NCBI GenBank assembly: GCA_022340685.1
Contig: JAJDNN010000041.1
Coordinates: forward strand, 1-35,539
DNA from: Pseudomonadota bacterium
Lineage (GTDB): Bacteria > Pseudomonadota > Gammaproteobacteria > UBA6429 > Thiohalophilaceae
Direction: 5' to 3'
Length of the DNA stretch: 35,539 nucleotides
The notes under the pieces are model-generated. The model ran no database searches and was not told where the DNA came from. It worked only from the letters and a program-made list of their open reading frames with translations. Below, piece after piece: positions 8,259-27,942 of the stretch. The position numbers were made by a program, and so were the translations under genes. Each line of letters begins with the position of its first letter. The stretch's first letter is position 1.

Positions 8259-8287
8259 AAAAAATGCCCCGGTTCGGGGCATTTTTT
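8259..8287 (-). terminator. Rho-independent terminator (possibly bidirectional) at the end of the 8289-21471 gene array
   Basis: AAAAAATGCCCC-GGTTC-GGGGCATTTTTT stem-loop immediately after the stop codon of the 8289..9287 gene. Confidence 0.9.
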
Positions 8288-8288
8288 A

Positions 8289-9287
8289 TTACCAGTAATA
8301 GGGGCGCGGCGGGTACCCGCCCGGACCATAGTACGGGGGATAACCCGGGTAGCCCCGGTAACCCCAGCCACGGTATGGCGGGCGCTGTAACATCGGGCCC
8401 GTGTTCTCCCCGTTCCCGGCACGCTCCTGCATAGCCGGTGGTGTGGACTGGTTCGCCCAGTCCGGTCGTTGCACAGGTTCCCAGACGGGTGGACGCGTTG
8501 CCCAGTCCGGTCGTGCGGGCGGCTGGCTAGGGCGATCCTCCACCCAGTCAGGCCGTTCCGGGGGAGTCGGGCGATTCGCCCAGTCCGGTCGTTCCCGTAC
8601 TGGAGGACGTGAGGCCCACTCCGGCCGAGCGGGTGGCTGAGCTCGGCGTTGTGCGTCTACCCAGTCAGGCCGTTCCGGCGGGTTCGGGCGATTTGCCCAG
8701 TCCGGCCGGGCCGAAGGTTGCATGCCGGTAGATGAGCCTGCTTCCCCGTCTGCGTTACCGTCAGACTGGTCTGACGTCGATACCGGTCCACGTGCTGTGT
8801 AGGGACCCCACGGGCCCGGTGCCATCATCGGATGACGCGCGTTACCATTCGCACCAGCGGGTCCGGCCATACCCGGATACATCGGAGCAGGTTGCTGGGC
8901 TGTCGCTTGTGTGGCATCGCGCCGTTCATACCAGACATACAAAGACAGAATAATAATCACCAGAATGACGACAGAACCCATGATCATGCCTGACAGGGGT
9001 ACCGCCGCTGGCGTCTTTGGTTTCTTGCTATCTGGCATTACCCCCATGTCATGCAGCTTTTCATTCAGTTTTTCACGCTTGCTCTTGTCGGCACTGCTGA
9101 CTGCACTGGCAGTCGTACTGGCAGCTACCCCTGCCCCCGCCGCTGTCGAGGTATCGGTGCTTTTCTGACTGGTTGTTTTCTTACTCACCGATTTCTTTTT
9201 AGCCACCGTCTTTTTCTTGCTGGCCTTTTTCTTGGTCGGACTGGCTGCAGCAGCACCGCCCGGCTTGTCTTTATCTTCTTCAATCAT
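8289..9287 (-). CDS. Single-pass membrane protein: Lys-rich N-terminus, one TM, C-terminal PARPDWA/PERPDW repeats
   Basis: KKKASKKKTVAKKKSVSKK N-terminus, TM MGSVVILVIIILSLYVWY, repeats such as ARPDWANRPNPPERPDWV, G/Y/P-rich C-terminus. Strong terminator follows. Confidence 0.75.
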   Translation of the reverse strand: MIEEDKDKPGGAAAASPTKKKASKKKTVAKKKSVSKKTTSQKSTDTSTAAGAGVAASTTASAVSSADKSKREKLNEKLHDMGVMPDSKKPKTPAAVPLSGMIMGSVVILVIIILSLYVWYERRDATQATAQQPAPMYPGMAGPAGANGNARHPMMAPGPWGPYTARGPVSTSDQSDGNADGEAGSSTGMQPSARPDWANRPNPPERPDWVDAQRRAQPPARPEWASRPPVRERPDWANRPTPPERPDWVEDRPSQPPARPDWATRPPVWEPVQRPDWANQSTPPAMQERAGNGENTGPMLQRPPYRGWGYRGYPGYPPYYGPGGYPPRPYYW

Positions 9288-9327
9288 GATATTAGTCTCC
9301 CATACTCTGGATATTGGTTACTCATAC

Positions 9328-10917
9328 TTAATGTTTCAGTTCAGATTCGTTTGCGGAATCTGTTACGTCGGGATCCCTGCTTTCTGTGGGCAAAGCGTCT
9401 GGCTCGGTGGTCGGGGTATCCTTCACCTCTGTTTTGACTTCAGTTTCAGCCGCTACTTGCATGACATCTGAACCATCACCTTTACCAGAGGGACTGGTAA
9501 AACGATCATTCAGCGACTGGATATGTTCGTCTGCGGCTGCAATGATGGCATGCAATTTCCGATGTACCCGACGTCCCCAACCCACCGGGTTAGGACGAAA
9601 GACGCTGCGCCACCAACGTGTGTTTTTCCGGAACGCGCGGCCCAGCATTTCAGCTTCTTCATCACTGATTGCTGTCTTGCGCAGGTAGCGTAAGGTACTT
9701 CTGGCAGCCCAGTGACGGGACAGGCCATGCACCAGTAATACAAATATGAATACAACGAGCCCAGCCACAGCCATGCGGCGGGGCGTTTCGATTATCAAAT
9801 CCTGCCAGGGCGCATAAAACTGCAACCCGTTCCAGTAACCCGCTTTTACGGACAATGCAATCAGTACGCCCATTATCAGTAGCCAGACAAACACATTCCG
9901 CCATACAGTACCTCGCAGCCAACGAGATAGTAACTGTTGTAATTGCGGAATCCGCACTTCATCGATTATTCGGGCGGTTTTTTCCAGGGCATCTGTGATC
10001 CGATAAGCCCGCTCATCACGCACCTGTTCCATACGTGTATAAATCTCGTCCAGATCTTCCTTGCACTTGCGTTCATAACGCTCGCGTAGTGCTGCATCAT
10101 CAATCGGGTTAGCTACCGTCTGGTTGTAAATATTATAGAATTTTCCAGCGGTCAGTCCTTCTTGCGCCAGGGCACGCTGCCAGGCTCCTACCACATCCTC
10201 GGGGTTATCTTCCCGCGAAGTCGTATCAATCTGGTTAAGGATATACAGGAACTTGCTTGAGTCATGACGTTTAATGGTATTACCAACCAGGTGGGTCAAT
10301 GTGTCCTGCATGGCACCAGGCTCGGGATGCCTCGCATCGAAAAACACCAGCACCAGATCAGACAAATCAATTATATGATCAGTTATTCGAAGCGTAGCTG
10401 TTCGTTGCGAGTCGGCATCAAAACCGGGGGAATCAATGATGATCCTGCCGCGTAGTTGCTCACTGTTACAAGTCTTTAGTTGCAGATAGGCATCGACGCG
10501 GTCACCTTCACCTTCTGCCACCTTGTCCAGCTCTTCACTGAACTGGTAAAACGGAAAGCGCGGATCCGCGTCAAGCGCAACACCTGGCAAATTACGGCTT
10601 TGCGGATCGCTCGAATAACAAATTACAGTGAACTTGTCGTCCACAGCCTGGTTACCGGTTTCCTGCAGTTCCCGCCCCAGATACTGATTAATGAAAGAAG
10701 ACTTACCCGCAGAAAATGTACCTAGCACTGAAATCAGTGGCCACCATGGAATCATCGCTGCATAGGACTGATTGCGTGCCAATAAACCGGTACGCCACGC
10801 AATACGATCCAGCTGCCGATATTTTCTGACCACCTTTACCAGCAGCGGATTTTCATCTCGCAAATGCTTTTCCAGATTATGCAGCCGTTCTGCTACATCT
10901 TTATCGACTCCAAACAT
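9328..10917 (-). CDS. EHD/dynamin-like GTPase with TM segments
   Basis: P-loop GTFSAGKSS, G3 DSPGF, G4-like NQID, LVLVFFDARHPEP; two hydrophobic segments (VFVWLLIMGVLIALSV, MAVAGLVVFIFVLLV). Confidence 0.85.
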   Translation of the reverse strand: MFGVDKDVAERLHNLEKHLRDENPLLVKVVRKYRQLDRIAWRTGLLARNQSYAAMIPWWPLISVLGTFSAGKSSFINQYLGRELQETGNQAVDDKFTVICYSSDPQSRNLPGVALDADPRFPFYQFSEELDKVAEGEGDRVDAYLQLKTCNSEQLRGRIIIDSPGFDADSQRTATLRITDHIIDLSDLVLVFFDARHPEPGAMQDTLTHLVGNTIKRHDSSKFLYILNQIDTTSREDNPEDVVGAWQRALAQEGLTAGKFYNIYNQTVANPIDDAALRERYERKCKEDLDEIYTRMEQVRDERAYRITDALEKTARIIDEVRIPQLQQLLSRWLRGTVWRNVFVWLLIMGVLIALSVKAGYWNGLQFYAPWQDLIIETPRRMAVAGLVVFIFVLLVHGLSRHWAARSTLRYLRKTAISDEEAEMLGRAFRKNTRWWRSVFRPNPVGWGRRVHRKLHAIIAAADEHIQSLNDRFTSPSGKGDGSDVMQVAAETEVKTEVKDTPTTEPDALPTESRDPDVTDSANESELKH

Positions 10918-10957
10918 TACTTTTATTCCCGTTACTGAATTTGGCTAAGCCCTGTAT

Positions 10958-11446
10958 TCACCAGGGCATAAAGCTGTTCATGAATGACATGGGCCGCGAT
11001 ACGCTCTGGTTCATGATCGACATATCGTAGCGTATTTGATTGATAGACATATTCATGCCGCGCATACTGACGACCATATCGCTCATCGAGGCATTCTGTG
11101 AATCAAGGGTCTGGGTCATTAGCACCATATTCTGAGATATCGAATCCATCTTGACCGAGATTGACGCCATATCCTGCGCCATACTATGCGCATCCTTGGT
11201 CAGGCTATAAATAAGAAAGAACCCATACCCGGCCAGAATGATAAATGCAAATAACGATGGATAGACGATCATTTCCCAACGTTTGGCGCTGGCCAGAAAT
11301 GCATCGGCCAATCGCTCCAGATGCAGGGCGCCGCCCTCCATATAATTCTGGGCATCGAGGTTATCGATATCCTTACCGAGCTTCTCGTCAGGATTGGTCG
11401 ATTCATTCACGTAACTATCCTTCATATCACCAATTATATTTGCCAA
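10958..11446 (-). CDS. Hypothetical membrane protein with predicted coiled coil
   Basis: One TM (YPSLFAFIILAGYGFFLIYSL) followed by a Met/Ser/Asn/Gln-rich heptad-like tail. Confidence 0.65.
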   Translation of the reverse strand: MANIIGDMKDSYVNESTNPDEKLGKDIDNLDAQNYMEGGALHLERLADAFLASAKRWEMIVYPSLFAFIILAGYGFFLIYSLTKDAHSMAQDMASISVKMDSISQNMVLMTQTLDSQNASMSDMVVSMRGMNMSINQIRYDMSIMNQSVSRPMSFMNSFMPW

Positions 11447-11558
11447 AACATCACCCTAAATTTCTTTTTTTCGGTCTTGTTCCAAACTTCCCGTTATTCT
11501 GGATGGGCAACACGCAGACTGCCCGTCTTTAGCTTCGTTGACTGCTTCGCTCGAAAAC

Positions 11559-12437
11559 CTAGTTTGTTTGCTTCATGTCCTGTTCCAGTTTTTCCGCAAG
11601 ATCAGGATCCAGGCCTTTCAGGACACGTACCAGATAACCTAACTGCCCGGTCTGTCCTGACTTCAACAGGCGTGTCGACGCCGCATAATAAGCGGTGCCG
11701 GCCAGTTCCCATTTGCCCATGGAGTAATATAGATTGCCAAGCTCACCATACAGATCCGGATTTTCCGGGCTAATTTCGATCAGATCTTTGTAAGCTGCTT
11801 CGGCCTCTCCATATTGGCGATTCCAAAATGCCTGCCGCGCCTGTCTGATCAGCTCGTGTTCCAGCCTGCCCTTGTCCTGCACGTCGGTCTTGTCCCCGAC
11901 CCCGGGCTGATCAATAACCTGTTGCGATTGTGAATCAGATGTCGGTCCCGGCAGACTGGCCGCTGCCATCATGTCACTGCTTGCTGTTGCTGCCGGAGGT
12001 GGCGTCGTCACACCTGCTTGTTGTTCGGGAGACGCCGGTGCTTCGGTCGCCACCTCGGACGGTATTTCAGCCAGATCCGTTGTTTCAACTTCCGGCTCCA
12101 TTCTGGCCCCGGTTGTCATTTCGCCGGGCGCTTCAACCGCAGCCTCCCCCGGTCCACTCACCACAGTTTCTGTAGATTCAACGACAGTCTCGCCTTGCTC
12201 CATCGGGGTTTCGGTAGTTTCAACTTCAGGCTGGACATTTTCTACCGCTGTTTCTGCGGTTTGCGTCTCAGCGATAGTAGTCGATGCTGGTTGCCGATCG
12301 TTTACCCAACTCTCGACATCTTCGTATATTGCATCTACTTCAGGCATAAGTTGATCACGATAATAAAAAGCCAGCACCACAGCGGCTACGATAATGATCA
12401 CCAGGCTATAACTAAGCAAAGTTCTGATTGCATACAT
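11559..12437 (-). CDS. Membrane-anchored TPR protein
   Basis: N-terminal TM, Glu/Thr-rich linker, C-terminal TPR (QARQAFWNRQYGEAEAAYKDLIEISPENPDLYGELGNLYYSMGKWELAGTAYYAAS). Confidence 0.75.
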   Translation of the reverse strand: MYAIRTLLSYSLVIIIVAAVVLAFYYRDQLMPEVDAIYEDVESWVNDRQPASTTIAETQTAETAVENVQPEVETTETPMEQGETVVESTETVVSGPGEAAVEAPGEMTTGARMEPEVETTDLAEIPSEVATEAPASPEQQAGVTTPPPAATASSDMMAAASLPGPTSDSQSQQVIDQPGVGDKTDVQDKGRLEHELIRQARQAFWNRQYGEAEAAYKDLIEISPENPDLYGELGNLYYSMGKWELAGTAYYAASTRLLKSGQTGQLGYLVRVLKGLDPDLAEKLEQDMKQTN

Positions 12438-12451
12438 ATTTTAAAATTCCT

Positions 12452-13117
12452 TTAGGCTGACTTGCGTCGTTTCTTGCCATCTTTATAATCGGGATAAAGC
12501 GCCCTTGCGAATTCTTCAAATTCACTGGACGCCTTGCTTCGGGCTGATAATTCAAACACACCGAGTCCCTCGCTCAGAGAACGGCGATAAATTGTGCGTT
12601 GACACAGCCGGTATGGCAGCACTTCGATTCCCGGCAACATGCCCAACGCTTCCTCGGTTTCATCGGATTCCCGCACGGCACGGTGGGTATCTGCGCGATT
12701 TACGAAGGCGCTAACAACAGGCCTAGTTTTCACATCCGCAATCGCTTCTTCGATGATTTTTAAAAACTTCTGCGTTGCCCAGACATCCGGCTGACTCGGC
12801 GGAACCGGAATTAGCACGGTGTCTGCCACTGACAGTGCGGCTTTCATACCTTCCATGTTTGCAGCGCCAACATCCACCAGCACTTCCCCCGGATGATATT
12901 TTAACTGCTCTTTGAGATTACCCTCACCCAGGTATACCTGTAACGGTGGTGTATATCCCTCCTCACGGCGTACTTCACCCACATCACTCAAGGTGCATTG
13001 TGGATCGAGGTCATATGCCACCACAGGCTGAGCTTTGGATTGCAGCCACATGGCAAGATTGAATACCACGGTGCTCTTGCCTGAGCCGCCTTTGAGATTG
13101 GCAATTACTGTAATCAT
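12452..13117 (-). CDS. ParA/MinD-family ATPase (orphan, no adjacent ParB)
   Basis: Deviant Walker A with signature lysine NLKGGSGKST, YDLDPQ, DVGAANMEG, PVPPSQPDVWATQ. Confidence 0.9.
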   Translation of the reverse strand: MITVIANLKGGSGKSTVVFNLAMWLQSKAQPVVAYDLDPQCTLSDVGEVRREEGYTPPLQVYLGEGNLKEQLKYHPGEVLVDVGAANMEGMKAALSVADTVLIPVPPSQPDVWATQKFLKIIEEAIADVKTRPVVSAFVNRADTHRAVRESDETEEALGMLPGIEVLPYRLCQRTIYRRSLSEGLGVFELSARSKASSEFEEFARALYPDYKDGKKRRKSA

Positions 13118-13146
13118 CTCTGTCGTCCTGTCAATTAGCCTGGCAA

Positions 13147-13926
13147 CTAACGGCCCGGCCCACTCACTGGTTCCGCAGGCATATCAATCTGTTTGTAATC
13201 TGACGGAACTTCAAACAACTTGCCTGGTTGCTTGCCAAAATTGATATCCTTTAATTCGCGCAAATATCCCCCCGGTAATTCTTCTCGAATGGCAATTTTC
13301 AACTGTACATCATGCCATTGCAGGGAGCGCGAACGTTGACCATTGGTCTGGATAGTAGCGACCTCCCATTTCTCGGTCATACGACCATTGACTTTTTCCT
13401 TGCCCAATAAATTCATTTCAGACATCGATCCATCCGGGTAGAGCTGTCTTACCGGCAAACGTTTTTGTTTATCAAGCCAGACCAGGCTGCGTAATTCACG
13501 TCCTTGATTCTTACTGATAAACTCCCATTTTTCAGCAGCCCTACCATTGACATTTTCTTCACCCAGTTTAACGCACGTGACATTTGTTACGCCTTCACAG
13601 GGGGTAACATCCGTTTTTTTTGCGCGGGTTTCGGGCAAGTCAACCGACGCGCCTGTTTGTACTACGTATTCCTTCCGGGCAGGATTCAGCATAATCCGGG
13701 TTTTTTCTTTCTCGCGGACGATTTCCACGAATTTCTGCCCATTCATTTCATATTCGCTGCGAACCGCGTCCGCACCGACATAAATCTTGGCCTTCATGAC
13801 CGGACGATCCGGCGTCTGTTGCACAGCGGTTGCTGAGAACTGGATTACCTGGCTCGCGGCCTGTGCCGTAATAAACCAGAGAAAAACACCTGCGCCAAGC
13901 AGTAAAGGGCGCCAACATGTTTTCAT
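13147..13926 (-). CDS. Secreted hypothetical protein (DUF4412-like) with internal duplication
   Basis: Signal peptide from Met13 of the listed ORF (MKTCWRPLLLGAGVFLWFITAQAAS). Two ~53-aa homologous repeats, LGEENVNGRAAEKWEF.. and LGKEKVNGRMTEKWEV... Confidence 0.65.
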   Translation of the reverse strand: MKTCWRPLLLGAGVFLWFITAQAASQVIQFSATAVQQTPDRPVMKAKIYVGADAVRSEYEMNGQKFVEIVREKEKTRIMLNPARKEYVVQTGASVDLPETRAKKTDVTPCEGVTNVTCVKLGEENVNGRAAEKWEFISKNQGRELRSLVWLDKQKRLPVRQLYPDGSMSEMNLLGKEKVNGRMTEKWEVATIQTNGQRSRSLQWHDVQLKIAIREELPGGYLRELKDINFGKQPGKLFEVPSDYKQIDMPAEPVSGPGR

Positions 13927-13997
13927 TTCGTTCATCTCCATATCTGACACAGAGTCATACACTAACGCTTATGCCAAAAATACAAACTCAATAAATA

Positions 13998-14030
13998 TGA
14001 GGGGGCACACGTCCGTGTGATATCCCCTCA
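13998..14030 (-). terminator. Stem-loop downstream of the sulfur-globule-like gene
   Basis: Minus strand TGAGGGG...CACACG-GA-CGTGTG-CCCCCTCA. Confidence 0.55.
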
Positions 14031-14037
14031 ACTGGTC

Positions 14038-14427
14038 TTACTTGGCCGGAGCCTGTTGCTGTGGGGCAGGTGCACCGTAACCCTGACCGTAACCACCGTA
14101 GCCAGGACCATAACCACCGTAGCCAGGACCATAACCACCGTAGCCCGGACCATAACCACCGTAACCCGGACCATAACCACCATAGCCCGGACCATAACCA
14201 CCGTAGCCCGGACCGTAACCGTAACCAGGACCATAGTAATCACGGCCATAGCCGTAACCACGGCCGGTACCACGGCCACTCATGTTGAACGACATATTGC
14301 CGTCACCCCAGCCGTCACCCGAACCATCCCATGGGCCACCGCCCCACCAAGCATTGGCAGCAGAGAGTGGCAGTGATGCGGCACCGACGATGGCAGCTAT
14401 GCCCAGTGCAGTTTTCAGTTTGCTCAT
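14038..14427 (-). CDS. Sulfur globule protein-like secreted Gly/Tyr/Pro-rich protein
   Basis: Signal peptide ending ANA, then [35 protein letters not shown], then tandem GYGPGYG repeats; resembles the CV1/CV2 (Sgp) proteins of purple sulfur bacteria. Confidence 0.75.
14080..14235 (-). repeat. 21-bp tandem repeat encoding YGPGYGG units
   Basis: Repeated ccgtagcccggaccataacca units within the sulfur-globule-like gene. Confidence 0.9.
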
Positions 14428-14626
14428 TTTACTTTCCTTCTTAAATTTAAAGAATTAACGACATGGCAGGCCATGTCACCCTGCTCCCAGACTGCATGAG
14501 ACATGAACGCAGGGAGCCCCGCTCATCTCCTCTATCACAACAATATGATTTATAAACCAGTTTCACATTGCATGTGTTGTTTCAGGTCAAGACAAATCCG
14601 ATTTATCACTCTTCACCTTTACCCTA

Positions 14627-15241
14627 TTACCAGATCCCCGGCCCCAGTCCGATCCCCGGGCCATACAGGCCTAACGGTGTTAACGGACCCAGCATGCCGA
14701 GGGGCCCGCCCAGCCCTGGATACATCAAGCCCGGCGCGCCCAGCTCGTACAGGCCAAGATAGGGATCGCCCAGGCCGCCCGGACCATACGGTGAATTCAT
14801 GCCAGCCATGCCAGTTCTGACCGGGGTCGGATACAGATAGGCTGGCGGCTGATAAAACTGCGCATTTACCCACGGGTTGCCACTGTTACCGGTGCGGCGG
14901 GAATCGTCCGCATAGTCATATGCCTGCACCGACCAGGGATTTCCGGTTTCCACGTCCCGCGGCAGTGGATCGGGTCGCGTGTCGCGATATTCATCCCGTT
15001 GCGGAAAACCGTAGGGATCATAGTGCCGGTTGTCGACACTCCAGCCTGACTGCGAACCGGTCTTTTCCCATATTTTCTCCTCCGAGTAGCAACAGGTCGG
15101 ACCGTTATTACGGTCAGTGCCATAGATATTGGTCTGTGCTGACTTGCTATACGGGCCCGCCAGGAGTGGGCTGACGATTCCTGCAATGAGGACAATACCC
15201 ACTGCCAGCAGACTAGATTGCCAATACCTCATCGTGTTCAT
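14627..15241 (-). CDS. Secreted hypothetical protein with Pro/Gly/Leu/Tyr-rich C-terminal tail
   Basis: Signal peptide SLLAVGIVLIAGIVSPLLAG; low-complexity C-terminus (GGLGDPYLGLYELGAPGLMYPGLGGPLGMLGPLTPLGLYGPGIGLGPGIW). Confidence 0.65.
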   Translation of the reverse strand: MNTMRYWQSSLLAVGIVLIAGIVSPLLAGPYSKSAQTNIYGTDRNNGPTCCYSEEKIWEKTGSQSGWSVDNRHYDPYGFPQRDEYRDTRPDPLPRDVETGNPWSVQAYDYADDSRRTGNSGNPWVNAQFYQPPAYLYPTPVRTGMAGMNSPYGPGGLGDPYLGLYELGAPGLMYPGLGGPLGMLGPLTPLGLYGPGIGLGPGIW

Positions 15242-15263
15242 GGTTGTTTACTGCCTGAATTCA

Positions 15264-16172
15264 CTATCGGGCACCCGGTGTCTGGCTGTTCGGTGGATTG
15301 TCATAGGCATTCTGGCCAGGTGCAGCCCTGTTGGGCCCACCGGGTCCGTATGGGTATTGCGGTACTGCCCAGCCAGAATTAGCCGGCGGCTGGTTCGGTC
15401 CCGGGCCCCACTGGGGCTGGGCCGGTGGCTGGTTCGGTCCCGGGCCCCACTGTTGCCGGGCCGGCGGCTGGTTCGGTCCCGGGCCCCACTGTTGCCGGGC
15501 CGGCGGCTGGTTCGGTCCCGGGCCCCACTGTTGCTGGGCCGACGGCTGGTTCGGACGCTGGGCCCAGTCGGGCCGGGCCGGTGGCTGGTTCGAACGCTGG
15601 GCCCAGTCGGGCCGGGCCGGCGGCTGGTTCGGTCCCGGGCCCCACTGTTGCTGGGCCGGCGACTGGTTCGGACGCTGAGCCCAGTCGGGCCGGGCCGGCG
15701 GCTGGTTCGGTCCCGGGCCCCACTGTTGCTGGGCCGGCGACTGGTTCGGACGCTGGGCCCAGTCGGGCCGGGCCGGCGGCTGGTTCGGTCCCGGGCCCCA
15801 CTGTTGCTGGGCCGGCGGCTGGTTCGGTCCTGGGCCCCACTGGGGCTGGGGCGGGCGCATCGGTCCAGGCCGATAGGCCGGTGGCGAGCCTGATTCCGCG
15901 TGCACTTCAGCATGAGCCTCATAGGACCCGCCATGGGCGACAGGCGGTGGTGGCATAATCGGTTGCATGGGTCGGACAGGCATTGCCGGCGCAGTTTCCG
16001 TGTCCACATACCGATAAGGCCCTGGGGGGGGTGGCGGTATGGCAGCCGTTCCTGCTGTCGTGTCATCCGTGCGGTCCGAAGCCTTGTCCTGTGCGATTGT
16101 GATTAAACTCACACCTGCGATAGCCAAACCCAATGTCAGGGCACCCAAGGAATTTACAATCTGGTCTTTCAT
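15264..16172 (-). CDS. Secreted Pro/Gln-rich protein with 13-residue tandem repeats
   Basis: Signal-like N-terminus; about twelve 13-aa units alternating QQWGPGPNQPPAR and PDWAQRPNQSPAQ. Confidence 0.75.
   Translation of the reverse strand: MKDQIVNSLGALTLGLAIAGVSLITIAQDKASDRTDDTTAGTAAIPPPPPGPYRYVDTETAPAMPVRPMQPIMPPPPVAHGGSYEAHAEVHAESGSPPAYRPGPMRPPQPQWGPGPNQPPAQQQWGPGPNQPPARPDWAQRPNQSPAQQQWGPGPNQPPARPDWAQRPNQSPAQQQWGPGPNQPPARPDWAQRSNQPPARPDWAQRPNQPSAQQQWGPGPNQPPARQQWGPGPNQPPARQQWGPGPNQPPAQPQWGPGPNQPPANSGWAVPQYPYGPGGPNRAAPGQNAYDNPPNSQTPGAR
15380..15850 (-). repeat. 39-bp tandem repeat array (~12 units, two unit types)
   Basis: Recurring ggcggctggttcggtcccgggccccactgttgccgggcc and ggctggttcggacgctgggcccagtcgggccgggcc units. 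Confidence 0.92.
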
Positions 16173-16191
16173 AGCATTACCTTTAATTTGT

Positions 16192-19100
16192 CTAGTCCGT
16201 CTTTAACTTGATACCACGACGCTTGTGTGGCCGGTTGCCTGCCGGTTTCGGCTTTTCACTCGCCTTGCCGGGTGAGGTTTTTTCCTGTGGCGGCGTTTTT
16301 TCCTTGGCCGGCGCTATCTTGCGATGGGCGGTTTTTTTCCTGGTCGTCTTTTTCTTGACCGGCTGCTCGGGTTCCGCTTTTGTCGCGGCGGGCTTGGTTG
16401 CGGATGATTGTGCAGTACCTGGCTTGTCTGCGTTCGGCGCCGCGGCACCGCTGTCACCATCTCCGCCGCTGCCGGTCGGGGGAGGTGAAGATGGGGGTGG
16501 CGTCGGCGCGGGGCCGTTGTCATCCGGTCCGGGTTCAGACCCGCCTCTGTATTTCTCCAGCAAGCCGACGATGATGGATGACAACAACAGGTAGATACCG
16601 CGCACGATATAGAATATCCAGAACGCCGCGCCTACCACCTTGCTGTAGATACGCATCCACAACGGCATCGGCGGCAGTTCAGGCTCGGCTTCAACTTCGC
16701 AACTCACTTCCTCAGCGTGAATATCGTAGCCTTCCGATTGCGCTATCAGATAGAACTGTTTCTGTGCGCTGATACAACCCAGCGGGATAACCACCAGGGT
16801 CAGGATTGTGGAAACACCGGCCCCGAACAACAGGCTGACAGCCATGCCCTGGAAAATAAAATCGGACAAAATTGCGGCTGCACCGGCCATCAGGGTCAGG
16901 GACGTAATAAAGATGGGCCTCATCCGGGTTTGCCCCGCCAGAATAACTGCTTCACGAATGTCTTTGCCATTCTCGACTTCGTGTTTGACGAATTCGACCA
17001 GCAGAATCGAGTTACGCACAATAATTCCGGCCAGAGCGATGAATCCAATCATCGAGGTGGCGGTGAATTCGGCGCCCATAATCCAGTGGCCCGGAATAAT
17101 CCCGATCAGTGTCAGTGGAATCGGCGCCATGATCAGGCCGGCCAGTTTGAAGTTCTTGAATTCCCAGACAATCAGGCCGTAGATCAGGACCAGCGCTGCC
17201 ATAAAAGCACCGCCCATGTCACGGAAGGTCTCATAGGTCACCGTCCATTCACCGCCCCATTCGAAACCTGATTGATTGTCATCTTCTGGCGGTCCGATCA
17301 AACCCCATGGCATGCCGGTAATTTTCACTCCGTCCGGTGCGGTGTATTTTTCCAACAGATCCTCGACCCCAAACATGCCATAGATGGGGGCTCCCAACCG
17401 ACCTTCCATTTCCCCGGTGACATATTCAACCGGACGCAGGTCCTGATGATAGATAATGGGTTGCTCTTTGGCGCGAATAAACCGGCCCAGTTCCCGCAAC
17501 GGCACGGCGCCCCCGTCCGAGGTTGGTATTGGCAGGCCGCCCAGACGCTCGACCTGGGAGCGGATCGGTAATGGCACCTGGATAATGATGTAGGTTGGTT
17601 CGCGTACGGCACCACGCTTGATGTCACCCAGCTTGTAATCGCCCATCGCCATCGACAGGTTGTTATTAATGGTGTCAACCGAGATACCTCGCCGGACTGT
17701 CTTGTCCATATCCACATTGAACTGCCAGTATTCAAACGGCTCCGCCATGTAGTTGTCCACATCGACAATATTCGGTACTTCCTCGAATAATGCGGTCATC
17801 TCGGTGGCCAGTTGGCGCCGGGTTTCCGATGTCGGACCGTATATTTCCGCTACGACTGTTTGCAACACAGGCGGCCCGGGTGGCATTTCGACAACCTGTA
17901 TCCTGGCCCCCATCTCCTTGGCAATCGGGGTCAGGGTATGGCGGGCGAATTCGGCGATATCATGGCTGCTGCGGTCACGATCATTCTTGTCCAGCAGCAT
18001 GACCTGGATGTCCGCCTGCCATGGTTTGTCGCGCAGGTAGTAGTGCCGCACCATACCGTTGAAATTGAACGGGGAAGCGGTGCCCACATAAGTCTGCAGG
18101 TCTGTCACTTCGGGTACTACACGCAACTCCTCGGCCAACCGCGAAGTGACGTTGGCAGTCACAGCCAACGCTGTCCCTTCCGGCATGTTGATAACCACGT
18201 TAAACTCGGGTTTGTTGTCAAACGGCAACATCTTGACGACCACGGACTGGGTATAGAACAGCATGCAGGAAAGCAGCGTGGCTGCAATCAAACCAAACAG
18301 GAACATCAGACCGATAGCCCGATTGGTGCACAGGGGTTTCATGAATGGCCGATAGAAGCGGCCAACCATACCGCGGAACTTTTCTTCCCGGTGTTCGGCT
18401 TTTTTCAGCGCCTCCAGCTTCGGGCGCACCCGCATGGCCATCCAGGGAGCGAATACAAACGCGGCAATCAGAGAGAAGAACATCGCTGATGCTCCCAGCA
18501 CCGGGATAGGACGCATGTAGGGCCCCATCAGTCCACTGACAAAACCCATCGGGAGCATGGCCGAAATAATCGTCAGTGTTGCCAGGATGGTCGGGTTGCC
18601 GACTTCACGCACCGCATCGATGGCAATGTCCATCGTCGTTTTGCCCGCGGTCAGCCATCGTCGAAATATATTTTCCACCACTACCGTTGCGTCATCGACC
18701 AGGATGCCAATGGAAAACACCAGCGCGAACAGGCTGACCCGGTCGATGGTGTAATTCAATATCCAGGCCGACCAGATGGTCACCAGAATTACAATTGGAA
18801 TAATTATTATCACTACCGACGCAGCACGCAGCCCCAGTCCGATCAGGCACAAGATGCTCACGGCCACCGCCGCCTCGAACAGCGCCTTTAAAAGTTCGTT
18901 GACCTTGTGGTCAGCCGTCTTGCCATAATCCCGCGTGATTTCGACATGCACGTTGTCCGGGATCAGGGTGCCCTTCAGCGATTCCAGTTTCTTGATGATG
19001 TTTTTTGAAACCGTCACCCCGTTGGTATCTATCTTTTTCGCCACCGCGATGGTCACTGCCGCTTCTGCAACCGCATTACTATCTTCTTTGGCCGCACCAC

Positions 19101-19995
19101 TGTAGTAATTAACAATCTGTTTTGTTTCTGCGGGCGCCATGAAGACACGCGCGACATCCCGCACATAGATCGGTACACCGCTGCGTACTCCGACCACCAG
19201 CCGCGACACATCATCAGCACTGTGAATAAAGGCGCCGGTATAGACCGTCATTGCCTTGTCGTCGCCCACAACGTTACCCGCCTGCTTTTCCGAGTTGGCG
19301 CTGGTGATAGTGTGGGCGATTTGTTGCGGGGAAATACCGAATCCGGCGAGTCGCTCTGGCAATATTTCTACCCGGATCCGTTCGGCACGTCCGCCGACTA
19401 CGAATCCTTTGCCGGTGTTGGGAACTTCATTCAGCCGTTGCAGAACATCAAAACCCAGGGTTCGCAGTGTGCTGTCATCCACATCCCGGGACCACATCGT
19501 CACTGTTACGGTGGGAACGTCGTCAATGCCTACCGGCTTAACCAATGGCATGGATACATCCGGCGGGATCTTGTCCAGGTTCGACTGGATTTTGTCGTGG
19601 ACCTTGACGATGGACGGGCCCATTTTCTCACCGACATAAAAACGCACGGTAACCATCGCGCCGCCGCGCTGCGTCCCCGAATAGACATGACGCACACCGG
19701 GAATCTCGCTCATTAACCGTTCCAGCGGCTCGGTAACCAGACTGGCAACCTGTTCTGCTGAGGCCCCCGGATACTGGACGAACACATCCACCATGGGTAC
19801 AGAAATTTTGGGATCTTCCTGTCGCGGCGTAAAAAACAGGCCCAGCAAACCGATCGCCAGGAAGGCCATCATTAGCAAGGGGGTAACAGGTGAATTAATA
19901 AACTGCTTGGTGATGCGACCAGCCAGGCCCAGATGTTCTTTATCCAGTTCGGGCTCTTGTTGCGGTTGGTTATTGGTGTTGTTGTTTTCAGTCAT
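16192..19995 (-). CDS. RND-family transporter permease with extended Pro/Lys-rich C-terminal tail
   Basis: AcrB-type sequence (PQEDPKISVPMVDVFVQYPGASAEQVASLVTEPLE, GILVDDATVVVENIFR, LAGIIVRNSILLVEFV), 1267 aa, tail rich in P/K (PVKKKTTRKKTAHRKIAPAKEKTPPQEK). Confidence 0.93.
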   Translation of the reverse strand: MTENNNTNNQPQQEPELDKEHLGLAGRITKQFINSPVTPLLMMAFLAIGLLGLFFTPRQEDPKISVPMVDVFVQYPGASAEQVASLVTEPLERLMSEIPGVRHVYSGTQRGGAMVTVRFYVGEKMGPSIVKVHDKIQSNLDKIPPDVSMPLVKPVGIDDVPTVTVTMWSRDVDDSTLRTLGFDVLQRLNEVPNTGKGFVVGGRAERIRVEILPERLAGFGISPQQIAHTITSANSEKQAGNVVGDDKAMTVYTGAFIHSADDVSRLVVGVRSGVPIYVRDVARVFMAPAETKQIVNYYSGAAKEDSNAVAEAAVTIAVAKKIDTNGVTVSKNIIKKLESLKGTLIPDNVHVEITRDYGKTADHKVNELLKALFEAAVAVSILCLIGLGLRAASVVIIIIPIVILVTIWSAWILNYTIDRVSLFALVFSIGILVDDATVVVENIFRRWLTAGKTTMDIAIDAVREVGNPTILATLTIISAMLPMGFVSGLMGPYMRPIPVLGASAMFFSLIAAFVFAPWMAMRVRPKLEALKKAEHREEKFRGMVGRFYRPFMKPLCTNRAIGLMFLFGLIAATLLSCMLFYTQSVVVKMLPFDNKPEFNVVINMPEGTALAVTANVTSRLAEELRVVPEVTDLQTYVGTASPFNFNGMVRHYYLRDKPWQADIQVMLLDKNDRDRSSHDIAEFARHTLTPIAKEMGARIQVVEMPPGPPVLQTVVAEIYGPTSETRRQLATEMTALFEEVPNIVDVDNYMAEPFEYWQFNVDMDKTVRRGISVDTINNNLSMAMGDYKLGDIKRGAVREPTYIIIQVPLPIRSQVERLGGLPIPTSDGGAVPLRELGRFIRAKEQPIIYHQDLRPVEYVTGEMEGRLGAPIYGMFGVEDLLEKYTAPDGVKITGMPWGLIGPPEDDNQSGFEWGGEWTVTYETFRDMGGAFMAALVLIYGLIVWEFKNFKLAGLIMAPIPLTLIGIIPGHWIMGAEFTATSMIGFIALAGIIVRNSILLVEFVKHEVENGKDIREAVILAGQTRMRPIFITSLTLMAGAAAILSDFIFQGMAVSLLFGAGVSTILTLVVIPLGCISAQKQFYLIAQSEGYDIHAEEVSCEVEAEPELPPMPLWMRIYSKVVGAAFWIFYIVRGIYLLLSSIIVGLLEKYRGGSEPGPDDNGPAPTPPPSSPPPTGSGGDGDSGAAAPNADKPGTAQSSATKPAATKAEPEQPVKKKTTRKKTAHRKIAPAKEKTPPQEKTSPGKASEKPKPAGNRPHKRRGIKLKTD

Positions 19996-20046
19996 ATCTG
20001 CGCCTGGCTCGCTCCCGCTGCCTGCCGGTTAGCCCAAAAAGTGGGC

Positions 20047-21420
20047 TCAGTTTTTGTGTGCCGGTTGCTTGGACCAGTTGGAATTCATTCCCGGCGGCGG
20101 GTTGGAATACAACCGTTCCCCGATCCGAATGCCAGACAGAACCGCAACGGTGTATTGGTCCAATTGTTCCCCAAGTCGTATCAAGCGCAATTCGGTCTCG
20201 TTGTCACCGTTAACGATATAGACCGCCGGCAAACTGCCACGCCAGATGATGGCCGAGGTAGGAATCACCGGTAAATTGCTCACCGGCACACTGGTATCCG
20301 GGAAACTCACCTCAGCGTACATCCCCGGTCCGCCCGGGACGCCCTTGGGCAGATCCAGTTTGACGGTCACGGTATGCCGCTGCGGGTCCGCCAGGGGGTA
20401 GATTTGTGAAATCCGCGCATTGACTTCCTTGTCTCCCACATCCAGCGTCGCCGGCACAATCATGCCGGTTTGCAGGCCGGGCATCAGGCGTGCTGGCACT
20501 TCAACCTGGATTTGCAAATCAGTCGTATCCGCGTAAGTCATCAATGGCGTACCCGGCTGCACGGTATCGCCCACTTCAACCAGCTTCCTGAGGATGACCC
20601 CATCAAAAGGCGCGATGGAACGGGTATCCAGCAGTCTGGCATCCACTTCATCGATCTGTGCCTGAACGGCCATCACCTGGCTGCCTGCCTGGCTGACCCC
20701 GGTTGCACTGGAATACAGATCCGCCTGGCGCTCAATCCAGGGGTTACCGTATAACCACGGATTGGAATAATAGTTGTTGTAATAATTATTACCCCCGCCG
20801 CCCCCGCCCATTCCGAAGAACCGGTCAAACATCTGGGGGAAATAGCCACCACCACCGCCTGTCGCGGCCTGGGGCGGAACAAAGTATTTCTGGAATTTTT
20901 GTCCCGGGTTCCAGACATTCTTCGTGTACTGGACCCGTGAGTTGCGATAACCCGCCGCCATATTGTTCAATTGGGCGACGGCGGCCCGGCGCTTGGCAAG
21001 CAGGTCATCATCATCCAGTGCAACCAGTACTGAATTGATCTTGAGATGATCCCCCGCCTCGCCAGCAATGTACTGGACCCGCCCCGGCAGCTGGGCAGTC
21101 AGGGTGACTTCCTTGTAGGAAATCACCGAACCGCCCAGTTTCACATGCGCCCCGACCGGGCTGCTCATGACTGTTATCACATCGTTCGAAACGGAGGACT
21201 GCCTGGAGTAAGGAGCGGAAGGTTGCCGGGTATGGGCTGAGAAGCCATACGGATTGGTCTGTGATCGGCTCTCCCTGAAATCATCCCTCGAATAACTGGA
21301 ATAGCCGTTGTTATTGTTATTTGTCTGGTAGGAATGGTCAGTTCCATTATGGGCGCCTGCCAACAGCGGCAGGCTGCCTGCCAGAACCAGCACAAAACAC
21401 TTTTTAACAGTGCTTTTCAT
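20047..21420 (-). CDS. RND periplasmic adaptor (HlyD/AcrA family) with Gly/Asn/Tyr-rich insertion
   Basis: Lipoyl/barrel motifs (GRVQYIAGEAGDHLKINSVLVALDDDDLLAKRRAAVAQLNN, APFDGVILRKLVEVGDTVQPGTPLMTYAD). Start placed at MKSTVKKCFVLVLAGSLPLLAGA. Confidence 0.88.
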   Translation of the reverse strand: MKSTVKKCFVLVLAGSLPLLAGAHNGTDHSYQTNNNNNGYSSYSRDDFRESRSQTNPYGFSAHTRQPSAPYSRQSSVSNDVITVMSSPVGAHVKLGGSVISYKEVTLTAQLPGRVQYIAGEAGDHLKINSVLVALDDDDLLAKRRAAVAQLNNMAAGYRNSRVQYTKNVWNPGQKFQKYFVPPQAATGGGGGYFPQMFDRFFGMGGGGGGNNYYNNYYSNPWLYGNPWIERQADLYSSATGVSQAGSQVMAVQAQIDEVDARLLDTRSIAPFDGVILRKLVEVGDTVQPGTPLMTYADTTDLQIQVEVPARLMPGLQTGMIVPATLDVGDKEVNARISQIYPLADPQRHTVTVKLDLPKGVPGGPGMYAEVSFPDTSVPVSNLPVIPTSAIIWRGSLPAVYIVNGDNETELRLIRLGEQLDQYTVAVLSGIRIGERLYSNPPPGMNSNWSKQPAHKN

Positions 21421-21496
21421 CATAGCTAAATCATCCTTTACACATCGCCAGGCGCGCGCGAGTAACTGCAAGCTTGTTCAAGGATGGACCGCGTGC

Positions 21497-21895
21497 CTAG
21501 CTCACCCGGCCCATTACGGCAAAGCTCTTGATAAAAGGGCCAGCCATGCGTGGGTCTTTAATCATAGCAGCATAGTCACCAACCTTAAATTTTAACTTGC
21601 GGGATGTGTAGGCCATCCCCAGTCCCATCATGCCCGGTGGCTTTTTGGACCATTTTTCCCAGTCCGCAGGTGTCGCGCGCAAATCCCAGCTGAGGGTCTG
21701 CCCGTTGTATGCGGCCCCGTCGGTTGCCTCGCCATTTTCCACAATCAATACCCCGCGCGGGTCATCTTCGCCATCAAAACCATAGCCAATGGCTGAATTG
21801 AAGCCGATTTTCTGCAGGGCGTCCTTTAAATCCTTTTCCGCATTCCAGGCGTCCTTGAATTTTTTCATCCAATCCTCTGAGAACATGTCAGCCAT
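21497..21895 (-). CDS. SCP2 sterol-binding domain protein
   Basis: WNAEKDLKDALQKIGFNSAIGYGFDGEDDPRGVLIVENGEA...KWSKKPPGMMGLGMAYTSRKLKFKVGDYAAMIKDPRMAGPFIKSF. Start placed at internal Met24. Confidence 0.72.
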   Translation of the reverse strand: MADMFSEDWMKKFKDAWNAEKDLKDALQKIGFNSAIGYGFDGEDDPRGVLIVENGEATDGAAYNGQTLSWDLRATPADWEKWSKKPPGMMGLGMAYTSRKLKFKVGDYAAMIKDPRMAGPFIKSFAVMGRVS

Positions 21896-21940: not shown

Positions 21941-21956
21941 AGCATGTGGCATGCCA
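21941..21956 (-). promoter_or_regulatory. Putative sigma-54 (-24/-12) promoter of the SCP2 gene
   Basis: Minus strand TGGCATGCCACATGCT, GG-N10-GC spacing, compared with consensus TGGCAYGN4TTGCW. Confidence 0.7.
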
Positions 21957-21995
21957 AAACACAAGCTATTGATTTAACTGCACTTTTTATGTTGA

Positions 21996-22130
21996 TGTTG
22001 CAGCATAAAATAATTTTGATTGTGCTAAATAGGCGTCCTAATATTCAGACAATCAACGGGTTACACCAAAATCAGGGCGTTGCAGCTTGTTGCAACACAT
22101 CCGTTTTACTGCAACACTTTGCATCAACAC
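21996..22130. promoter_or_regulatory. Cluster of TGTTGCA-type sites between the SCP2 gene and the sigma-54 activator
   Basis: TGTTGCAGCA (21996-22005), GTTGCAGC (22079-22086), perfect palindrome TGTTGCAACA (22088-22097), CTGCAACA (22109 onwards). Confidence 0.55.
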
Positions 22131-22151
22131 CCACCCACAAGGTCATTCGGT

Positions 22152-23501
22152 ATGCGCGAGGAATCCGGCTTCATGCCACTGCTGGAAGCAGTGGTCTCCT
22201 ATATCGATGAGGGTGTCATTATTGCCGACCAAAAAGGCCAGGTCGTGTACCAGAATCCCTCCGCTGGTCGACTGCTGGGACTCCCCGGGAACGAACCCAT
22301 CCGGCGCTTGAACGATATCGGTAAATTCAATCTGCAACGGGCAACGCTGAAAGCCGCCATCGATGCCGGCGAGGTAGATGCCGCCGGCAAACCCAGTGGG
22401 AATTTTGTCAGCTTTGAGCAACGCCTGAATGTTGACGACAGTTATCGCTACCTGGAATTTCACAGTGGACTGGTAGCCGATCCGGCCCACAAACAGCATT
22501 TACGTCTGGTGTTGATCCGCAACCGAACAGAACAACGCCGCCTGGAGGCTGTGTTCAAATCGGGGCCACAAGAATTCGAAACCCGCGATCCCCGAATGCT
22601 GGAAATCGTGGATCGGGTCCAGCAAATCGCCTTAACCACGGCTTCTGTGCTTTTGCAGGGTGAATCGGGCACGGGTAAAACGCATGTCGCACGCATGATT
22701 CACAGTGCCAGCAACCGCGCCAACCACCCCTTTGTTGAGCTCAATTGCGCCGCTATCCCGGAAACCCTGATTGAATCGGAGCTGTTCGGGCACATCAAAG
22801 GCGCTTTCACCGGTGCAGATCGGGATCGCGTTGGCCGCTTCCAGACCGCCCACCTCGGCACCCTGTTCCTGGACGAGATCAGCGAAATCCCGCTGCATCT
22901 GCAAGCCAAGTTATTACGCGCAATTCAGGATCAGGAATTCGAAATGGTGGGGTCTGACAAACCGGTACGCGTCAATGTCCGTATCATCGCGGCATCCAAT
23001 CGCAACTTGCGTGACATGGTAGACAACGGAGACTTCCGTGCCGATCTGTTCTACCGCCTCGCCGTGATCCCGCTGACCATACCCGCACTGCGGGACAGGC
23101 CGGGCGATATTCCGCTGTTGACAAACTATTTCTGCTCCCGCCTCACAGCACGCGGCTATCCCGCCGATACTCAGTGTCACCCTGACGCCATGCGGATGCT
23201 GATGAACTATCCCTGGCCGGGGAATGTGCGAGAACTGGAGAACGCCGTGGAGCACGGCATTATTTGTGCGGAAAAGGGCGTGGTACTCCCGGAGAGTCTG
23301 CCCCAGGATATTTGTGACTACTGTGCATCAGGCAAGGCGCACAACACTGCCACCCAGGAACAGGAATCCGACTTTCAGCAGCAGGCCGAAATCCGAAACG
23401 CACTGAAACGGGCTAATGGGAGCAAGGCCATGGCGGCCCGTATCCTTGGCATTGACCGCACCACCCTGTGGCGTCGTATGCAGCGGCTGGGGATTCACTG
23501 A
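22152..23501 (+). CDS. Sigma-54-dependent activator with PAS domain and Fis-type HTH
   Basis: PAS-like N-terminus ([30 protein letters not shown]), [19 protein letters not shown]-terminal [33 protein letters not shown]. Start chosen at MREESGF. Confidence 0.92.
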
Positions 23502-23902: not shown

Positions 23903-24535
23903 TCAGGCCGATTCAGGGTCAGTGGTATCGGGATACCATCGCTGCAGATCCTGGTATCGATCAATATCCCATAAGGTCGCCAGCTCGTCCCAGCGTAAAC
24001 CTCTAGTTCGCAACCGATCGCGGGTTTGCTGCAGAACCTGTGCGCTGCCCCACTCTATTTGCTCGAAGACAGAGGCCTCAGCCCGGCGCATACCAATCAT
24101 CACATACCCACCATCTTCAGCAGGTCCCAGTACCGCGTCAGACTGGTCCAGCTTCTGAAACGCCTGGTGCAAATAGCCGCAATCCATGACGGGGCAGTCA
24201 GTGCCAATTAACACCACCCGATCACAGTCGGTCAGGGTAGAGTCCAGTGCGTGGTACATACGTTCGCCCAGGTCCCGGCCTGTTTGCGCAACCCGCCGAA
24301 CGCCAAGCTTCTCCAATTCCAGAAACAAAGCATGTTGCAGATCGGGACTGCAGTACAAATCCACCGGCGCCAGCTGACTGGCCAATGCCATCCGCACGGT
24401 GCGACGTGTGAGTTGGCTGTGAAGTTCGGCCGCGGCGTTTCGACTCAACGCAGGTACCAGCCGGGTTTTTACCTTGCCGGGCACCGGAGCCTTGGCAAAG
24501 ATCAGAATACGTGCAGCGGGGTAACGATATGTCAT
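23903..24535 (-). CDS. TIGR04282-type glycosyltransferase (arsenosugar/rSAM-selenodomain-associated transferase 1, DUF2064)
   Basis: ARILIFAKAPVPGKVKTRLVPALS...LIGTDCPVMDCGYLHQAFQKLDQSDAVLGPAEDGGYVMIGMR. Start at MTYRYP gives an ATGA overlap with the upstream gene. Confidence 0.88.
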   Translation of the reverse strand: MTYRYPAARILIFAKAPVPGKVKTRLVPALSRNAAAELHSQLTRRTVRMALASQLAPVDLYCSPDLQHALFLELEKLGVRRVAQTGRDLGERMYHALDSTLTDCDRVVLIGTDCPVMDCGYLHQAFQKLDQSDAVLGPAEDGGYVMIGMRRAEASVFEQIEWGSAQVLQQTRDRLRTRGLRWDELATLWDIDRYQDLQRWYPDTTDPESA

Positions 24536-25230
24536 GGTCGGTGGCGCACCGGGTAATAAATCGCCGCCAGTCGCCGCGGCGGCACGCCAAGAAAGTAGGC
24601 CAGGCGTAACATCCACATCAGCAACACCGTTCGCAGAATACCGGCCTGCTCCCAGCGTCGGCTGGATGTCACGACCGGGACTGACAGGCAGACGGGACGG
24701 GAAATCTTTCGCAAGCGGCGACTGATCGCAATATCCTCCATCAAAGGAATGTCGGGGAATCCGCCGACCTGCTCGAATACATGGCGGCGAACGAACATGG
24801 CATGATCACCGGTCACTATTCCGGTCAGACAGGAACGCAAGTTCATCATGCGTTCGATAAGCCGGAACATAACCCGCCGCCCGGACAAGCGAACGTTAAA
24901 CCGACCCCACTGTCGGTCGCCGCCTGCCAGGGCCGCCTTTATCAATGCCGTTGCCGTCGACGGCAGGCGGGTATCAGCATGCAAGAACAGCAACACCTCA
25001 CCCTGCGCCACGGCCGCGCCCGTATTCATCTGGCAGGCTCGTCCCGCTGACGCTTTCAGAACCCGATCCACATACTGGCTAGCGAGCCTCCGGGTTGCAT
25101 CACGGCTGCCACCATCAACGAGGATCACTTCTACCCCGTTATTTCGCCATGCCTGTAAACTGGCAAGATTGTCGGCGATTGCAGCAGCTTCATTCAGCAC
25201 CGGGATGATGATCGAAACGGAAGGCGTCAT
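24532..25230 (-). CDS. TIGR04283-type GT2 glycosyltransferase (rSAM-selenodomain-associated transferase 2)
   Basis: VSIIIPVLNEAAAI...VILVDGGSRDATRRLA...GRACQMNTGAAVAQGEVLLFLHADTRLP...GDHAMFVRR..F...PLMEDIAISRRL. Confidence 0.88.
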   Translation of the reverse strand: MTPSVSIIIPVLNEAAAIADNLASLQAWRNNGVEVILVDGGSRDATRRLASQYVDRVLKASAGRACQMNTGAAVAQGEVLLFLHADTRLPSTATALIKAALAGGDRQWGRFNVRLSGRRVMFRLIERMMNLRSCLTGIVTGDHAMFVRRHVFEQVGGFPDIPLMEDIAISRRLRKISRPVCLSVPVVTSSRRWEQAGILRTVLLMWMLRLAYFLGVPPRRLAAIYYPVRHRP

Positions 25231-26411: not shown

Positions 26412-26471
26412 AGCCTGGCCTGGAGCAACCTAACCCGTTGCCAAGTTCCGCAGCGTATCATTGCAGTGGTC

Positions 26472-27437: not shown

Positions 27438-27443
27438 TGTTTC

Positions 27444-27929: not shown

Positions 27930-27942
27930 AGTGGCCTCCACC

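Follow-up and report, generated by a model that had tools for sequence, protein, structure and literature searches.

A conserved gene array of sulfur-oxidizing gammaproteobacteria joins a sulfur-globule-type protein to an RND pump and a ParA-type ATPase

In the DNA stretch analyzed here (the window, 35,539 nucleotides), 12 co-directional genes place an SgpA/SgpB-family protein inside a widely conserved array, together with an RND-MFP pump, a ParA-type ATPase and several secreted and membrane proteins. Putative sigma-54 signals precede the array, and its RND permease was detected only in genomes with sulfur-oxidation genes. We infer that the array may assemble and space periplasmic globules. 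That it specifies a membrane-spanning machine building and organizing periplasmic sulfur globules in sulfur-oxidizing gammaproteobacteria has, in our judgment, about an even chance of being correct.

An earlier note on this DNA described eleven co-directional minus-strand genes ending in one strong terminator. Both the 11 ORFs (8289-21471) and the hairpin were confirmed; gene L, located upstream, is the twelfth gene. The gaps between the array genes are 14-112 bp, except for 199 bp before gene G. The features are as follows.

8259..8287, minus strand: intrinsic terminator of the array, AAAAAATGCCCCGAACCGGGGCATTTTTT, located past the final stop codon (-19.4 kcal/mol, z -3.6)
8289..9287, minus strand: A, cytosolic KLxDMGVM motif, TM helix (92-122) and Pro/aromatic-rich RPDW repeats
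9328..10917, minus strand: B, EHD-like dynamin-superfamily GTPase with two TM helices (Dynamin_N, 4e-14)
10958..11446, minus strand: C, TM helix and coiled coil, ending in FMNSFMPW (PW terminus in 44 of 50 homologues)
11559..12437, minus strand: D, N-terminal TM helix, acidic linker and TPR (domain and TM calls; 50 loci)
12452..13117, minus strand: E, orphan ParA-type ATPase with KGGSGKST (NF041546, 9e-38)
13147..13962, minus strand: F, secreted DUF4412/RseB-like protein (Pfam DUF4412 1.5e-8, MucB_RseB 2e-4)
14038..14427, minus strand: G, SgpA/SgpB-family sulfur-globule protein (G-family HMM against the Allochromatium vinosum Sgp proteins)
14627..15241, minus strand: H, secreted Gly/Pro/Tyr-rich protein with W as last residue (relatives in loci L025/L045 and L027/L046)
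15264..16172, minus strand: I, secreted Pro/Gln-rich protein with PPARPDW repeats (signal-like N-terminus, composition)
16192..19995, minus strand: J, RND permease (ACR_tran, 467 bits)
20047..21471, minus strand: K, periplasmic adaptor (MFP) of the RND pump (TIGR01730 above cut-off; in 57 loci)
21497..21895, minus strand: L, soluble protein with predicted SCP2 fold (ATG at 21895, 21964 in the ORF list; AlphaFold pLDDT 83)
21941..21957, minus strand: putative sigma-54 promoter upstream of L, TTGGCATGCCACATGCT, GG-N10-GC (-24/-12)
21996..22116, strand unassigned: putative upstream activating sites, TGTTGCA / TGTTGCAACA / TGCTGCAACA
22080..23501, plus strand: M, divergent regulator with PAS, sigma-54 activator and Fis HTH domains (Pfam)

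Domain searches identified MFP (TIGR01730), RND (ACR_tran), ParA (NF041546-like), TPR, Dynamin_N and DUF4412/RseB-like domains. A scan of the whole window yielded no Rfam family and no tRNA. The -24/-12 promoter was present in 11 of 12 homologous regions (shuffles: mean 0.39, maximum 3), and the 12 M-L/K intergenic regions contained 28 TGTTGCA-type sites where 1.9 were expected. Gene M, whose true start is probably near 22149, is divergent and adjacent to the array in related loci too. From sequence evidence, the array is predicted to be under a sigma-54 promoter with a cognate activator.

The gene set is kept in about 50 further loci, in dozens of genomes from many families, showing that the grouping exceeds chance; the synteny that the earlier note suggested looking for is broad and not limited to close relatives. 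We then used 229 gammaproteobacterial genomes as a distribution sample, with dsrA and soxB as sulfur-oxidation markers. A J orthologue was present in 46 of them, from 35 families. All 46 carried dsrA or soxB, compared to 58 of the 183 genomes lacking J (Fisher p 1.6e-19), and the same held for 35 of 35 J-positive families (p 3e-15). The host genome of the window carries both markers. J is thus confined to genomes that have rDsr, Sox or both. The earlier note named conservation of the set in lineages lacking globules or inclusions as a refuting result; every J-bearing genome carried sulfur-oxidation genes. The 58 sulfur-oxidizer genomes without J show that sulfur oxidation itself does not depend on J. 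Complete oxidation is predicted by SoxC, which was found in 4 of 41 J-positive, soxB-positive genomes versus 9 of 34; at p 0.07, SoxC absence is only suggestive as a sign of globule formers. A search for pufM, aimed at purple sulfur bacteria, detected none in the 51 dsrA-positive genomes. In one related locus (L034), genes for OsmC, a YeeE/YedE-type Sulf_transp protein and a rhodanese lie downstream of the array.

The link to globules is now far better supported than when the earlier note saw a resemblance to sulfur globule proteins. The G-family HMM matched A. vinosum SgpB (E 1.8e-18) and SgpA (E 1.7e-15). This homology goes beyond composition (z 7.5-8.5), since 0 of 2000 shuffles reached the real score. 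G consists of 36% Gly and 15% Tyr, with a hydrophobic stretch at 6-24, and has the N-terminal signal peptide and Gly/Tyr-rich repeats of such proteins. A Sec-type precursor, an AWWG start, a GDxxFNMS/SFNMS core, Gly-Tyr repeats and an APAxxQ-type end are common to G and A. vinosum SgpA/SgpB. By its sequence, G is a true member of this family. In A. vinosum, SgpA and SgpB are periplasmic coat proteins of the globules.

A. vinosum is the classic purple sulfur bacterium, a proven globule former that stores sulfur inside the cell and is genetically tractable. Its genome, reached via the published sgpD terminator, contains an array at chromosome positions 2,013,757-2,021,769, in the order MFP (K), RND (J), low-complexity protein, DUF4412 (F), ParA (E) and coiled coil (C). 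The Sgp proteins that we located elsewhere in this genome had masses of 13.0, 12.6 and 11.0 kDa, which are the published masses of SgpA, SgpB and SgpC (PMC10386293). In contrast to G, which lies inside the array of the window, the A. vinosum genes sgpA-D are all outside the K-J-F-E-C array, showing that sgp co-localization is not universal.

The pump has the hallmarks of HAE-type RND exporters: J is a complete RND permease that has the aspartate pair of TM4 (Asp434-Asp435, invariant in the alignment), and K supplies the MFP. J, which scored far under the cut-offs of known RND subfamilies, belongs to an uncharacterized one. Its C-terminal tail is long and ends near RRGIRLK, a motif kept in 48 of 53 sequences. 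Domain searches found no outer-membrane channel gene among the array genes; a shared TolC encoded elsewhere may serve. L, found in 40 related loci, had no sequence-family match in profile searches, and its predicted structure matched sterol carrier protein 2 in Foldseek (E 7e-7, TM 0.65-0.77), supporting an SCP2 fold. F has a conserved Cys pair in its alignment; neither F nor c8 matched a solved structure.

These proteins also fit a different role, export of envelope lipid or a hydrophobic metabolite in sulfur oxidizers. Here L, the RND-MFP pump and LolA/RseB-like F would supply the outer membrane with a lipid or pigment, or defend the cell against sulfide/polysulfide, and the sgp genes would adjoin the pump only because both are induced by reduced sulfur. 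The SCP2 fold of L, the DUF4412/RseB-like nature of F, the distance of J from known drug pumps and the unlinked sgp genes of A. vinosum are consistent with this explanation. It nevertheless leaves unexplained the aromatic/proline-rich secreted proteins, the ParA and the SgpA/SgpB-family gene in the operon, and we consider it unlikely. Secreted low-complexity proteins between J and E/F, equivalent to I by position, were present in 41 of 47 loci.

We also compared these proteins with SgpD, since A. vinosum sgpD adjoins an MFP and RND exporter (PMC10386293). That locus (L208) resembles the window in that the gene of a secreted globule protein adjoins those of an RND-MFP pair. However, its exporter is not a J orthologue (322 versus 2062 bits), and I of the window is not an SgpD homologue (z 0.4; 300 of 1000 shuffles scored equal or better). 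Among proteins in the I-like position, those of L032 and L033 outscored every shuffle in the comparison with SgpD, and those of L030, L034, L038 and L039 did not, arguing against a relation at the family level.

E resembles ParA-type cargo-positioning ATPases (ParF, McdA-like) in being small and orphan, with a deviant Walker A (KGGxxKST) and C-terminal motifs. In the family alignment, KGGSGKST is invariant save for one position, RRSxSEG is conserved, and the nearest solved structure is ParF. ParF/McdA-like systems use a ParB/McdB-type adaptor, whereas no match to a ParB/McdB-family adaptor was found in the array. Membrane proteins would have to serve instead, and A, C, D and the tail of J are candidate partners. 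The N-terminal KLxDMGVM motif of A is conserved in its homologues.

B was called EHD-like in the earlier note, and profile and fold searches backed this: its best matches were EHD4 (2e-6 by profile, 1e-11 by fold) and EHD2. B shares the dynamin-type G domain of EHD ATPases. In contrast to these, which carry a C-terminal EH domain, B had no EH/EF-hand match and has two C-terminal TM helices instead. The proposal that it defines the system did not hold, because B also occurs outside it: 19 of 55 B-bearing genomes lacked J, and 8 of these 19 lacked dsrA and soxB. We therefore rejected B as a system marker. In genomes without J it is solitary, often near nadA; 10 J-positive genomes lack it, and in A. 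vinosum it is unlinked to the array. Since B stands alone in genomes that lack sulfur oxidation, and is unlinked in A. vinosum, it is accessory. The core consists of ParA, RND, MFP, the secreted low-complexity proteins, DUF4412 and the coiled-coil protein.

This behavior of B, alone near nadA, missing from those 10 genomes and unlinked in A. vinosum, is what would be expected if there were no single machine, and ParA and the dynamin-like GTPase, doing general work, just happened to lie next to a sigma-54-regulated sgp/pump operon. E does not behave in this way. It is about as frequent as J in related loci (57 for E, 55 for J), which differ in gene arrangement, it lies beside C and F even in A. 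vinosum, and only short gaps separate the genes in the window. We regard an incidental grouping as improbable.

Some sulfur oxidizers deposit sulfur outside the cell (PMC10386293). The proline/aromatic-rich low-complexity secreted proteins might bind, wet or attach to such solid sulfur at the surface, with pump and ParA polarizing a surface structure. This is very doubtful, as the array encodes neither an outer-membrane channel nor type I/II secretion, SgpA/B coat globules in the periplasm, and the array is present in A. vinosum with its internal sulfur.

A globule-building machine could work as follows. When reduced sulfur is oxidized, the divergent PAS/sigma-54 activator would turn the operon on. 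The Sgp-type proteins and the others rich in aromatic residues and proline would be exported by Sec and form a coat on the nascent sulfur phase. Together, the SCP2-fold carrier, the RND-MFP pump and RseB/LolA-like F would pass a hydrophobic ligand, either a lipid or the sulfur, into the periplasm where the globule is growing. Bitopic A, C and D would anchor the coat to the inner membrane, and the orphan ParA would space globules along the nucleoid via the cytosolic tail of a membrane protein (A, C or D). Where present, the EHD-like GTPase may shape an inner-membrane invagination around the globule. The fullest version, a dedicated organelle-type machine that is ParA-positioned, RND-fed, Sgp-coated and in many lineages enclosed by the EHD-like GTPase, is put forward tentatively, at somewhat below even chances.

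By analogy, magnetosome (mam) clusters group membrane proteins, a partition-type organizer and cargo-specific proteins for one inclusion. They differ in cargo and compartment, and no mam gene was identified in the array. No description of the array system was found in the searchable open literature; apart from the SgpD note, no paper found in it connected sulfur globules with an RND pump, a ParA or a dynamin. Although sulfur globules were first seen over a century ago, to our knowledge descriptions are limited to the coat proteins and to the enzymes making or consuming the sulfur. In the conserved array, an Sgp-type coat protein is grouped with a pump, a ParA and a membrane-shaping GTPase. Its presence in tractable A. 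vinosum makes the nucleation, coating, placement and daughter-cell sharing of globules testable by deletion and tagging. If the proposed role is true, sulfur globules would join the few bacterial inclusions that have organizing machinery of their own, in bacteria that are central to symbioses and the sulfur cycle.

The window corresponds to contig 159 from a metagenome-assembled genome of 2.2 Mb and 87% completeness. Twelve minus-strand genes run through it from L (starting at 21895) to A (ending at 8289). An earlier note had described eleven of them, and its gene calls, strand, terminator and domain assignments were all correct; L and the divergent regulator gene M also belong to the unit. 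The genes are as follows.

M, 22080-23501, plus strand: sigma-54 activator with PAS, sigma-54 AAA+ and Fis HTH domains
L, 21497-21895, minus strand, first gene of the array: SCP2-fold protein
K, minus strand: MFP
J, 16192-19995, minus strand: RND component
I and H, minus strand: secreted, low-complexity proteins
G, 14038-14427, minus strand: secreted, Gly/Tyr-rich protein
F, minus strand: secreted, DUF4412/RseB-like protein
E, minus strand: ParA
D, minus strand: TM-TPR protein
C, minus strand: TM-coiled-coil protein
B, 9328-10917, minus strand: dynamin-superfamily GTPase with two TM helices
A, 8289-9287, minus strand, last gene: TM protein with RPDW repeats

Intergenic gaps are short except for the 199 bp preceding G, and a strong hairpin terminator directly follows A. 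The 199-bp gap (14428-14626) holds an inverted repeat, which may serve the coat-protein gene as an additional promoter or a processing site. Opposite G, a 119-aa open frame (14017-14376) was judged a by-product of the Gly/Tyr repeats rather than a gene. The M-L intergenic region contains a sigma-54 promoter of the form GG-N10-GC, along with sites of the TGTTGCA type. Such a promoter was found in 11 of 12 homologous M-L/K intergenic regions (shuffles gave 0.39 on average and at most 3), which together hold 28 TGTTGCA-type sites (1.9 expected). Sigma-54 control of the array is predicted from sequence rather than from transcripts.

The earlier note had proposed a search for conserved synteny. Using profiles built from the window proteins, we found that the gene set recurs in many sulfur-oxidizer lineages, in two arrangements. 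Full-length relatives of B were present in 14 of 58 near genomes and on hundreds of public genome contigs, mostly from named sulfur oxidizers (Sedimenticola, Thiodiazotropha, Thiohalobacter, tubeworm and clam symbionts). In arrangement I, M and L-K-J-(low-complexity)-G-F-E-D-C-B-A are ordered as in the window; a gene for a membrane DUF302 protein (c8), absent from the window, often comes next. In arrangement II (Sedimenticola, Thiodiazotropha, tubeworm symbionts), B is divergent from L-K-J-(low-complexity)-(F)-E-c8; with these profiles F was recognized in the Sedimenticola loci and not in those of Thiodiazotropha and tubeworm symbionts. Two small genomes (G138, G254) retain L-K-J-x-F-D-C and have neither B nor E. 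Of 47 loci, 41 encode one or more secreted low-complexity proteins between J and E/F (81 proteins; Pro 14%, Gly 11%, Tyr 7%, Trp 3%). Those beside J in arrangement II (L049-L121) carry (Y)RFRP repeats, with FRP at 5.9 per 1000 residues versus 0.23 in other ORFs (~25-fold). Of 50 C homologues, 44 end in PW, and a KLKDMGVM-type motif on the cytosolic side is common to the A homologues.

J was surveyed across 229 genomes sampled from the whole class. Its orthologues separate cleanly by score (full-length at least 1560 bits; other RND pumps ~1250 or less); one partial J at the edge of a contig (G218) was included because it adjoins B. J was present in 46 genomes from 35 families and was limited to sulfur oxidizers: dsrA or soxB occurred in all 46 (each in 41), versus 58 of 183 genomes lacking J (Fisher p 1.6e-19). 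By family, in a hand tally from tables, the counts were 35/35 versus 41/~133 (p 3e-15). The window's host genome has both markers. SoxC turned up in 4 of the 41 soxB-positive genomes with J and in 9 of the 34 without it (p 0.07), suggestive at most of depletion. In locus L034, genes for OsmC, a YeeE/YedE-type transporter and a rhodanese follow the array. The long low-complexity C-terminal extension of J ends in a near-invariant RRGIRLK-type peptide (48 of 53 proteins) that resembles a docking motif; given a hydrophobic segment near residues 1120-1139, this tail could lie on either side of the membrane. A second, tail-less J subfamily (~1090 aa, 1740-1940 bits; L162-L166, L169-L172 and G269, Magnetococcales) has its own MFP and no F, E, D or C neighbors.

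The earlier note had also called one secreted protein sulfur-globule-like, and comparison with Allochromatium vinosum upheld this. The A. vinosum genome was located by the published sgpD terminator (sole match among 210 genomes of the order). Its SgpD matches the published 22-residue signal peptide and following Trp (PMC10386293), and three Gly/Tyr-rich secreted proteins near the expected positions have precursors of 13.0, 12.6 and 11.0 kDa, as published for SgpA, SgpB and SgpC (PMC10386293). In the fetched A. vinosum stretches, SgpB (1.8e-18) and SgpA (1.7e-15) were the only matches to the G-family profile, with E-values scaled to a database size of 5 million. The window G outscored 2000 of 2000 shuffles against each of these; against SgpC it did not outscore all shuffles. 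Thus, by sequence, G is a member of the SgpA/SgpB family, beyond mere compositional likeness.

A. vinosum itself carries K-J-(222-residue secreted protein)-F-E-C together (L211:8758-16770; sequence upstream of K masked), the secreted protein having an RFRP motif. B lies elsewhere (C1:1268872). The exporter adjoining sgpD scored 322 bits; it is another RND pump, and the idea that it represents J was rejected.

Among solved structures, B comes closest to EHD4 and EHD2, both in profile comparison (2e-6) and when its predicted fold is compared (1e-11; model pLDDT 78). It has no EH domain and carries two TM helices. The EHD/dynamin-like assignment of the earlier note is supported by both searches, whereas B as a defining part of the system is not supported: 19 of 55 B-bearing genomes lack J, and 8 of these also lack dsrA and soxB. 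There B stands alone, apparently often adjoining nadA (from ORF length and synteny in arrangement II). B is best regarded as an accessory that the array has recruited. Downstream of the array, at a distance of one or two genes and near c8, lie genes for short B paralogues (240-270 aa; L023, L024, L038-L043) that resemble B over its C-terminal membrane region alone and have no GTPase domain.

A separate unit of arsenosugar-biosynthesis type occupies 23903-28590 (minus strand), with an ArsS radical SAM protein (TIGR04167, 460 bits), two glycosyltransferases (TIGR04282, TIGR04283), an MFS transporter and a methyltransferase.

Every protein family in the array is already known. The open literature searched did not tie sulfur globules to RND, ParA or dynamin proteins, save for a remark on the exporter beside sgpD; A. 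vinosum transcriptome and proteome papers may already note parts. We rate the system as new in composition and infer its function as follows. Sec would secrete the coat proteins, and the SCP2 carrier, the RND-MFP pump and RseB-like F would deliver a hydrophobic ligand to where the globule forms. A link between the periplasmic coat and the inner membrane would be provided by A, C and D; ParA (E) would space the assembly, and B would shape the membrane.
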